In this document: positions 30,077 to 32,308 of the stretch, one piece after another | How the letters are laid out: every line of letters starts with the position of its first letter | Numbering within the stretch: position 1 is the stretch's first letter | Assembly (NCBI RefSeq): GCF_014180715.1 | Contig: NZ_JACEFC010000014.1 | Coordinates: forward strand, 13,059 to 54,412 | Length of the DNA stretch: 41,354 nucleotides | Direction of reading: 5' to 3' | From: Nocardioides stalactiti | GTDB lineage: Bacteria > Actinomycetota > Actinomycetes > Propionibacteriales > Nocardioidaceae | Notes under the pieces: generated by a model | What the model was told of the DNA's origin: nothing | Database searches by the model: none | What the model saw: only the letters and a program-made list of their open reading frames with translations | Made by a program: the position numbers and the translations under genes

Positions 30077-30474
30077 GCGCCCTCGAGGCCGGCGCCGAGC
30101 TCGCGCCGCAGGAGTTCGTCGTACGACGCGACGACCTGGTCGCCTACGCCGGCGCGTCCGGCGACCACAACCCGATCCACCAGGACGAGTCGATCGCCCA
30201 CCTGGTCGGCCTGCCCGGCGTGATCGCGCACGGGATGTACACGATGGCGCTCGCCGCTCGCGCGGTCGCCGTGTGGACCGACGACGCCGAGGTGGTCGAC
30301 CTGGGCTGCAAGTTCACGGCCCCGGTGGTCGTCCCGGCGGAGGGCGGCGCCACGGTCCGGATCGCCGGGACGGTGAAGTCGGTCGCCGACGGCTGCGCGA
30401 CCCTCGCCCTCGACGTCACCTGCGCGGGGGAGAAGGTCCTGGGCGCACCCAAGGCGGTCGTCCGACTTGGCTGA
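30073..30474 (+). CDS. MaoC-family dehydratase, HadB type
   Basis: Encodes 133 residues. The hydratase-2 motif YAGASGDHNPIHQDE provides catalytic Asp31 and His36, and GLPGVIAHGMYTMALAAR follows as in HadB. It forms the catalytic half of a heterodimer with the upstream HadA-like protein and should dehydrate 3-hydroxyacyl-ACP or -CoA. The overlap with murB is 8 nt, so hadA-hadB-murB is one transcript. Confidence 0.92.
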   Translation: MSALEAGAELAPQEFVVRRDDLVAYAGASGDHNPIHQDESIAHLVGLPGVIAHGMYTMALAARAVAVWTDDAEVVDLGCKFTAPVVVPAEGGATVRIAGTVKSVADGCATLALDVTCAGEKVLGAPKAVVRLG

Positions 30475-31531
30475 GCGCCTCGCCGACCACACGACCCTGC
30501 GCCTCGGCGGACCGGCCCGGGCCTGGGTGCGGGCGACGACCGAGGACGAGCTGGTCGCTGCGATCACCTCGGCGGACGATGCCGGTGAGCCGGTCCTCGT
30601 GCTCGGCGGCGGCAGCAACCTGGTGGTCGCCGACGAGGGCTTCGCGGGCACGGTCGTCGAGGTCGCTACGCGCGGCATCGCGGCCGACGTCGAGGACTCC
30701 GACGACCCGACCTGTGGGGGAGCAGTGGTGACGGCGGCGGCGGGGGAGACCTGGGACGCCCTGGTCGCGCACGCGGTCGAGCGCGGCTGGGTGGGCATCG
30801 AGGCCCTCTCGGGCATCCCCGGCTCGGTCGGCGCCACCCCGATCCAGAACGTCGGCGCCTACGGCCAGGAGGTCAGCCAGTCCATCGCCTCGGTGCGGGT
30901 CTGGGACCGCAAGCTCCGCGGCGTCCGTACCTTCGCCGCAGCCGACTGCGGCTTCGGCTACCGCACGTCGCGCTTCAAGGTCGACCGGTACGACGCGAGC
31001 GCGGCCTTCGGTGGTCGGCACGTCGTCCTCTCCGTCACGTTTCAGCTGCCCCAGGGCTCGCTCTCGGCGCCGGTGGCCTACGCCGAGCTCGCGCGCTCCC
31101 TGGGCGTCGAGGTCGGCCAGCGCGCGCCGCTCGCCGAGGTCCGGGCCGCGGTGCTGGCCCTGCGGTCGGGCAAGGGCATGGTCCTCGACCCGACCGACCA
31201 CGACACCTGGAGCGCGGGCTCGTTCTTCACCAACCCCGTGGTGCCGGCCGACGCCGTCCCCGACGGAGCCCCGGCCTGGCCGACCGGCGACGAGGGCGCC
31301 CTCAAGACCAGCGCAGCGTGGCTGATCGAGCACGCGGGCTTCGGCAAGGGCCACGCCGGCCCTGGTGGACGTGTCTCCTTGTCGACAAAGCACACGCTCG
31401 CGCTCACCAACCGCGGTGGCGCGGCCACCGACGACCTGCTCACGCTCGCGCGGGAGGTCCGCGACGGCGTCGCGGCGTCGTACGGCATCACCCTGGTCAA
31501 CGAGCCCGTGCTCGTCGGCTGCACCCTCTGA
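30467..31531 (+). CDS. murB: UDP-N-acetylenolpyruvoylglucosamine reductase
   Basis: Encodes 354 residues from a TTG start that overlaps hadB. FAD-binding parts are clear: TTLRLGGPARAWV, VLVLGGGSNLVV, ALSGIPGSVGATPIQNVGAYGQEV. The C-terminal domain has GSFFTNPVV (catalytic Ser) and KTSAAWLIEHAGFGKG. It reduces the enolpyruvyl group to give UDP-MurNAc for peptidoglycan. The length and layout fit type I MurB. Tandem 21-bp repeats start three nt after its stop. Confidence 0.96.
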   Translation: MAERLADHTTLRLGGPARAWVRATTEDELVAAITSADDAGEPVLVLGGGSNLVVADEGFAGTVVEVATRGIAADVEDSDDPTCGGAVVTAAAGETWDALVAHAVERGWVGIEALSGIPGSVGATPIQNVGAYGQEVSQSIASVRVWDRKLRGVRTFAAADCGFGYRTSRFKVDRYDASAAFGGRHVVLSVTFQLPQGSLSAPVAYAELARSLGVEVGQRAPLAEVRAAVLALRSGKGMVLDPTDHDTWSAGSFFTNPVVPADAVPDGAPAWPTGDEGALKTSAAWLIEHAGFGKGHAGPGGRVSLSTKHTLALTNRGGAATDDLLTLAREVRDGVAASYGITLVNEPVLVGCTL

Positions 31532-31533
31532 CT

Positions 31534-31674
31534 CGAATCCGGACCTTCCTGGGCCGAATCCGGACCTTCCTGGGTCGAGTCCTGACCTTCCTGGGTCTCG
31601 AGGTCACGTCGAGCTCGAAAGGTCGGGATTCGCCGCGGACAACTAAGGATTCGACCCAGGAAGGTCAGGATTCG
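31534..31674. repeat. 21-bp unit in three tandem and two inverted copies
   Basis: Units at 31534-31554, 31555-31575 and 31576-31596 share the core GACCTTCCTGGG and differ at one to three positions. An inverted copy lies at 31654-31674 and a degenerate inverted one near 31613-31632. The array spans the murB/TetR convergent gap and forms the last codons of the TetR gene. Foldback of direct on inverted copies could terminate both transcripts. Confidence 0.8.
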
Positions 31675-32308
31675 ACGTGATCCGCAGCAGCCGGATGAGG
31701 CTGTCGACGTAGGCCCGGGTGCCGTCGGCCTCGAGGCTGGCGGTCGGGGTCGTGATGAGTGAGACGACGATCCGGAAGCACCACTCGGCAGCCTCACGCG
31801 GCGTGAGTGGGCGGGACCCGTCGGGTCGCGCCTCGGCCTGGTCGAGCGCGCGGCCGAGCTGTTCCTCGAACAGCGCGACGACCTGCTCGACGAGGGGACC
31901 CGAGCCCGTGGTGAGCGCCGGCAGGATCAGCTCGGGGTGCTCGCTCAAGGCCTTCTGGAGCAGGGCGTGGCCGCGCGCGTAGTCGACGACGTAGACGATC
32001 GCGCTGACGAGGTGGGCCTCGAGGTCGTCGCTGCGGCGCATGATCGGCACGACCGAGCTGAAGAAGGTGACGATCTCGCGGTCGAGGACCGCGGCCACGA
32101 TCGCGGACTGGTCGCCGGCGTACTTGTAGACGGTCGGCCGGGAGATCCCCGCGCGCTCGGCGATCGCAGCGTGCAACCGGGCGTCGAGGCCCTGGTCGAG
32201 GAGGCACTCGGTCGCCGCGTCGAGGATCCGCTCGCGGATGGTCTCCGCCGCCTTCGGGTTCGCGGGCCCGGGGCGGAGGCGGTGGACGCTGGACCTCAGG
32301 CCGGACAT
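31643..32308 (-). CDS. TetR-family transcriptional regulator
   Basis: Encodes 221 residues from ATG 32308, with TACGAT 6 nt upstream (leaderless). The helix-turn-helix is at about 43-66 (ARLHAAIAERAGISRPTVYKYAGD). The remainder is a helical ligand-binding domain. The last residues (SNPDLPGSNP) are encoded by the inverted copy of the 21-bp repeat, so the natural C-terminus may have been altered by repeat insertion. It is divergent from the AurF-like gene and probably controls it. The shared 98-nt gap has a GACCGGTC palindrome at 32329-32336. The ligand is unknown. Confidence 0.9.
   Translation of the reverse strand: MSGLRSSVHRLRPGPANPKAAETIRERILDAATECLLDQGLDARLHAAIAERAGISRPTVYKYAGDQSAIVAAVLDREIVTFFSSVVPIMRRSDDLEAHLVSAIVYVVDYARGHALLQKALSEHPELILPALTTGSGPLVEQVVALFEEQLGRALDQAEARPDGSRPLTPREAAEWCFRIVVSLITTPTASLEADGTRAYVDSLIRLLRITSNPDLPGSNP

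Follow-up and report, generated by a model that had tools for sequence, protein, structure and literature searches.

What is a run of 21-bp repeats doing in the gap between two converging genes, murB and the gene of a TetR-type regulator, and how did it come to encode the end of one of the two proteins? This question is raised by a 41,354-nucleotide stretch of Nocardioides stalactiti DNA (contig NZ_JACEFC010000014.1), the whole of which is called the window below and whose own numbering is used throughout, and it can be followed into the rest of the genome and into its relatives.

The element between murB and the TetR gene

The gap element consists of two arms of three 21-bp units each, the first forward and the second inverted, on either side of a 17-nt centre and with all six units in phase (Table 1), and it begins 1 nt downstream of the murB stop codon (TGA, 31529-31531). 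The original prediction had counted three tandem and two inverted units; the tandem ones are as described, while the inverted arm has three, two of which (at 31613 and 31634) are decayed, with 6 and 7 mismatches, respectively, to the nearest of three consensus units. The stop codon of the TetR gene (TAG, 31643-31645) lies within the element, and the protein terminates in RITSNPDLPGSNP, its final ten residues, SNPDLPGSNP, being encoded by the repeat.

Table 1. Features at the murB/TetR gap, in window positions
Feature	Positions	Strand	Remarks
murB	30467..31531	+	Putative start codon; open reading frame; Pfam MurB_C and FAD_binding_4 for 30491-31531
Unit 1	31533..31553	+	TCGAATCCGGACCTTCCTGGG
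Unit 2	31554..31574	+	CCGAATCCGGACCTTCCTGGG
Unit 3	31575..31595	+	TCGAGTCCTGACCTTCCTGGG
17-nt centre separating both arms	31596..31612	no strand	
Inverted unit 4	31613..31633	-	Decayed; CGAATC retained
Inverted unit 5	31634..31654	-	Decayed; CGAATC retained; contains the TetR stop codon
Inverted unit 6	31655..31675	-	TCGAATCCTGACCTTCCTGGG; translates as SNPDLPG at the TetR end
TetR-type regulator	31643..32308	-	Putative start codon; Pfam TetR_N; gene call; final 10 residues element-derived

The earlier suggestion that the repeat has rewritten the TetR C-terminus is borne out by comparison with orthologues from three relatives, which end in RIAG, SIAGAEGSQRPAEG and GIAGAEGSAS and have no SNPDLPGSNP tail. 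In three relatives (L202, L203, L204) a gene of a small membrane protein lies between murB and tetR, and this gene is not found at that place in the window. Taken together, the absence of this gene from the gap and the altered TetR tail suggest that the element, or a rearrangement which brought it in, replaced both the small membrane-protein gene and the native TetR end. The locus would then be a case of a repeat element replacing a neighbour gene and altering the end of a protein.

The TetR terminus could also be taken for a functional tag, the heptapeptide SNPDLPG being appended to proteins for its own sake. We find this scarcely credible, considering that the tail is missing in the three orthologues, that the arrays described below mostly start after stop codons, and that the period in relatives is mostly 22 bp. 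No clear codon pattern was found in 109 units of the same genome either, where the mean information at first, second and third codon positions is 1.34, 1.46 and 1.30 bits. By the same evidence the seven-codon, frame-keeping length of the unit, to which the original prediction gave weight, looks coincidental.

Directional arrays at gene ends

The unit is by no means unique to this site, nor is it conserved at the end of TetR orthologues. With a 161-bp query, a search of the genome detected another 24 loci (E of at most 0.2), and the pattern CGARTCNGNACYTWYCTG gave 66 matches, grouped into 27 loci, against none for the reversed pattern, and the murB/TetR repeats can therefore not be put down to chance. 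A stricter pattern, CGAATCNGNACCTWCCTG, matches 57 times in this genome and not once in 146 further genomes of the genus. Exact-core matches on contigs C26 and C211 had no unit at 6 mismatches or fewer and were dropped as chance. The unit is built of a near-constant CGAATC and about 15 lineage-variable bases, with a length of 21 bp in N. stalactiti and 22 bp in most relatives. There are one to five units per direction at a locus. Each of the 23 loci of the 21-bp subfamily with adjacent units has a spacing of 21 bp, the remaining four of the 27 carrying single clear units that yield no spacing value. Two additional arrays, on C71 and C188, are built of 22-bp units with CGAATC. At two loci the element is a perfect palindrome, whose stem measures 44 bp at one and 38 bp at the other. 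The outermost units of the two arms are more alike within a locus than across loci (2.79 versus 3.65 mismatches; p=0.0003, n=19), which may come from either pairing selection or local conversion. Contigs C73 (6969 bases) and C204 (32357 bases) terminate inside an element or a few bases from one, and further copies may therefore be hidden at assembly breaks.

According to our gene calls, which come from a codon-position caller rather than annotation and leave pair types uncertain, 17 of the 27 elements lie between convergent genes, seven between codirectional and one between divergent ones, and two are at contig ends. The convergent share is thus 17 of 25 classifiable elements as compared with 56 of 428 gene pairs in 433 kb (p=2e-9), and it is still 12 of 20 (p=3e-6) when five elements with a wide uncalled side are removed; the pair type is most uncertain at L049, L053 (both), L054 and L060, each with a stretch of 176-1314 nt on one side in which no gene was called. 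Over five genomes 30 of 63 arrays are convergent. Scaling the 56 pairs per 433 kb to 4.55 Mb, about 3% of convergent pairs would bear the element.

The position of the arrays relative to stop codons was counted on 64 arrays of five genomes, one array inside a called gene being left out, together with those at sequence ends and those of the other genomes with fewer than three CGAATC; for G002 and G189 the arrays are those among the matches listed. Where the units point away from the neighbour gene, 69 of 90 array ends face its stop codon and 21 face a start. A stop is no more than 30 nt away at 58 of these 90 ends, as opposed to 8 of the 35 remaining ones (Fisher p=4.6e-5, with ends that are not independent of each other). 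Broken down by genome, the share of outward-pointing ends at such a distance from a stop is 28 of 41 in N. stalactiti, 10 of 12 in G147, 7 of 11 in G002, 8 of 13 in G025, and only 5 of 13 in G189. In G147 the distance from stop to first unit is 12-14 nt at 8 of 12 loci. As one-armed arrays occur as well (C71 and C188 are examples, and G147 has many), the inverted repeat looks like the outcome of two arrays, one on each of two convergent genes.

Shared sites and variable units in relatives

At eight sites of the N. stalactiti genome a repeat is present at the orthologous gene end in another genome: five of these are CGAATC arrays of the close relative G025, one is in G212, one in G189, and one is a G025 array of another repeat family. 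Four of nine G025 triple-array loci are at such shared sites (binomial about 3e-5, at an assumed rate of 2.3% each); no CGAATC array was found at four orthologous gene ends in G204. The shared positions may come from ancestry or from a common site preference. Outside CGAATC, identity is 0.76 between the loci of N. stalactiti and 58% within G025, while it is 0.51 for five orthologous pairs between the two genomes, 0.51 for non-orthologous pairs and 0.49 for shuffled ones, as computed on 21 of the 27 loci and on 9 of the 10 listed G025 arrays. With orthologous variable parts no more alike than shuffled ones, and those of a single genome so similar, it would be logical to suggest that units have probably been transferred or copied between loci. 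The unit length points in the same direction, since 21 bp at 23 loci, against 22 bp elsewhere, would otherwise require parallel one-base changes, which are unlikely. Positions that are partly common to species, with a sequence alike within genomes and different between them, make the copying of short repeats between bacterial loci directly testable.

The earlier description of the repeat as mobile or expanding is therefore to be accepted in part: the family is dispersed and tandemly expanding, and transfer between loci is probable, while mobility in a stricter sense is at odds with the eight positions common to relatives and with the result that no REP-type Y1 transposase was found in the seven genomes searched.

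We consider as established, at the level of sequence and with our own gene calls, the dispersal of the family, its anchoring and orientation at stop codons as a strong tendency, its enrichment in convergent gaps, the sharing of sites with relatives that have different units there, and the likeness of units within this genome. Our best reading, to which we give about an even chance, is that of a lineage-expanded, directional gene-end element, whose two-armed form is perhaps a bidirectional terminator or insulator. An array would build up head to tail after a stop codon, oriented with transcription; where genes converge, arrays would often arise on both sides and the whole would become an inverted repeat. 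Copying or conversion would carry units from locus to locus, and slippage would multiply them within one. The murB/TetR element would have occupied the place of the membrane-protein gene and taken over the TetR end. Counting against this reading are the one-armed arrays without a notable fold, the lack of a U tract, the small share of convergent pairs concerned, the patchy occurrence in the genus, the array ends that face a start or depart otherwise from the expected anchoring, and the four G204 gene ends without a CGAATC array.

The main rival of the gene-end-element reading, which we consider quite possible though with less than an even chance, is a selfish or neutral satellite-like repeat without function, which is copied ectopically, grows by slippage and persists where it is harmless, i.e. 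after stop codons and in convergent gaps. The lineage-specific and patchy occurrence of the family, the homogenised units of the genome, and the murB locus, where the element stands in for a gene and for the original TetR tail, all speak for such a repeat. Tolerance alone leaves unexplained, however, why the units follow the orientation of the upstream gene and begin close to its stop codon although placement on the other side is loose, and why positions are shared with relatives, as in the four of nine G025 loci; that no Y1 transposase was found in seven genomes also speaks against it.

How far the family reaches was followed with a pattern of three spaced CGAATC, which selects for the core and is biased toward its conservation. 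Within the genus 21 of 215 genomes have it (no match for the reversed control), and within the order 29 of 391, belonging to 10 of 40 genera (control 1 match). Beyond the order but in the same class, one or two matches each were found in 8 of 355 genomes (control 1 match), and these we take as background. Four of the 21 genomes of the genus (G164, G100, G207, G052) have other periods; the other genomes with multiple arrays have a 22-bp period with few exceptions. G338 belongs to another genus of the family, and each of the seven distinct arrays inspected there begins within 29 nt of a stop, while the array of G262, from the genus of G338, has no nearby stop in the expected manner. Elsewhere in the order, the array of G369 is anchored (20 nt), that of G468 nearly so (43 nt), and those of G395, G441, G445, G399 and G316 lack the expected anchoring. 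As to the home genus, G212 has two further arrays, of which one is anchored as expected, and one or two of the three G060 arrays depart from the expected anchoring, none being clean.

An 18-base pattern gave at least 109 stretches in the genome collection, and the 80 listed have one match each and come from many unrelated phyla; by our own estimate we judge these matches to be at chance level. A phage origin was considered and rejected: 95 viral stretches contain three spaced CGAATC, and 80 of these became loci, with 98 matches. The matches inspected, which had four or more CGAATC in the vicinity or a GC above 0.6, look like unrelated tandem repeats, many on low-GC contigs; the viral matches served as background only.

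Possible functions and known systems

The three two-armed elements that were folded do so much better than shuffled sequences, with z of -8.0 and -7.2 for the two strands of the window element, -19.0 for L043 and -15.6 for L051. Six one-armed arrays gave z of -0.7, 0.1, 0.3, 1.7, 0.0 and -3.3, and as five of the six are without a notable fold, hairpin formation cannot fully account for the function. A single unit has only a weak internal dyad (mean z -0.53 over 34 typed units), and the idea that each unit is a mini-hairpin was discarded as too weak. A U-tract terminator was rejected too, there being no terminator-like match with a U tract in 31300-31900; in Rfam 15 nothing came near gathering for 31000-32300, the one match being mir-2432 at 22.1 bits versus a gathering score of 100. 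From the predicted folds, a two-armed terminator stays plausible. A long hairpin would form in both transcripts and may end or insulate convergent transcription without a U tract and, if the element does end transcription, this would account for the way in which convergent genes are kept apart in some high-GC genomes where U tracts are not used.

For one-armed arrays another possibility has to be weighed, namely a polar roadblock, in which a protein sits on each CGAATC core, about two helical turns apart, and halts RNA polymerase one way, like phage stoperators. A protein roadblock would account for the one-armed arrays, five of the six folded being without a notable fold, for the asymmetric units mostly following the direction of transcription, and for the core. 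At two G025 sites located by gene orthology alone, and so without search bias, there are 22-bp CGAATC arrays whose other bases are different, and these sites, together with the two decayed units of the window that keep CGAATC, argue for conservation of the core across species. Nevertheless we regard the roadblock as decidedly unlikely: G338 also has units with CGAAAC instead of CGAATC, and N. stalactiti itself (G000) has stop-adjacent 22-bp arrays with CGAACC or unrelated cores (one beginning GGGCAAGTCGGCCCC; C1:50248-50332, C1:69617-69714 and C112:35590-35670), which argues against one recognised core. These 22-bp arrays came from a de novo search for tandem repeats and speak against a universal CGAATC core. 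A wider proposal would make the arrays a gene-end marking system of the whole family: starting at the stop codon, directional arrays would be measured out by a fixed ruler of 21-22 bp, every species would overwrite the bases outside the core throughout its genome (the change from 22 to 21 bp at the 23 loci with adjacent units being a part of this), and some factor would read the core and halt RNA polymerase one way. That all these parts hold jointly we consider unlikely.

Among known systems, cluster A mycobacteriophage stoperators, which belong to a known phage repressor and measure 13-14 bp (PMC6550527), appear to be the best functional analogue for one-armed arrays. The stoperators share with our repeat asymmetric sites oriented with transcription (here a strong tendency, with exceptions) and variants differing between genomes; the present sites, unlike theirs, form chromosomal tandem arrays without a known binder. 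For the constant core, a possible analogue is offered by the TAACTGA direct repeats of Beggiatoaceae (PMC4679880), which are likewise intergenic, with a short constant core and a patchy distribution over lineages, and lie mostly upstream of start codons, whereas our arrays are mostly downstream of stops. Intrinsic terminators of the hairpin-cluster type, described (PMC8355165) as lying close behind stop codons with poly A/U trails not necessary, may be the analogue for two-armed elements, which also have predicted hairpins near stop codons; the differences are that one unit sequence is common to 27 loci here and that unfolded one-armed arrays exist.

A further reading is an element of the REP/BIME or REPIN type, moved by a RAYT transposase. 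The reports on such elements (PMC3733652; PMC3116915) describe short, dispersed, lineage-specific elements at downstream and convergent sites with hairpin-forming inverted pairs, and even REPs that supply stop codons (PMC3733652), and in all of this our repeat is similar, being extragenic, 3' of genes and preferring convergent gaps. The unit differs from theirs in being a 21-22 bp tandem module that mostly starts at a stop codon; on reading, it contains no full palindrome, where a palindromic unit of 20-40 bp would be expected, and its consensus has neither GTAG nor CGTC, one of which would be expected at one end. The Y1 transposase domain (PF01797) was found in none of the seven genomes searched, including that of N. 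stalactiti (control 5 of 14), and mobility by RAYT was accordingly rejected; an element of the REP/BIME type is very improbable. Among the literature matches listed, no description of the present repeat family was found.

Gene ends in these genomes also carry other repeats. The period is much the same in arrays of different sequence: intergenic tandem-repeat rows with a period of 20-22 bp make up 12 of 14 in the N. stalactiti sample, 15 of 24 in G025 and 4 of 12 in G204, as counted by eye, with some rows overlapping within one array. An inverted family, CCGACCCGGCTCGTTTGAACGAGCCGGGTCGG, occurs at L305-L313 in G025 and L314-L315 in G064; at L307 and L308 it has the 21-bp tandem spacing, and L307 is at the orthologous site of a CGAATC element of N. 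stalactiti. A different, palindromic family, CAACATCCCAnGTnnACnTGGGATG, is found at L229 and on contig C1 of G204 (e.g. 695798-695822), where it lies behind murB; it has 23 matches in G204, 8 in G170, 1 in G109 and none in the other 206 of the 209 genomes searched. A 21-bp array of TCGAATCGGTCCCTGAGCCTG is present near a stop at L503 in G369, and it resembles a repeat that we take to recur in many genomes. Finally, in the G204 sample (95707-95783 of the fourth joined block) a 19-bp tandem repeat, CTCGTCGGGACCAGTGACC, stands at the gene end orthologous to that of L059 in N. stalactiti.
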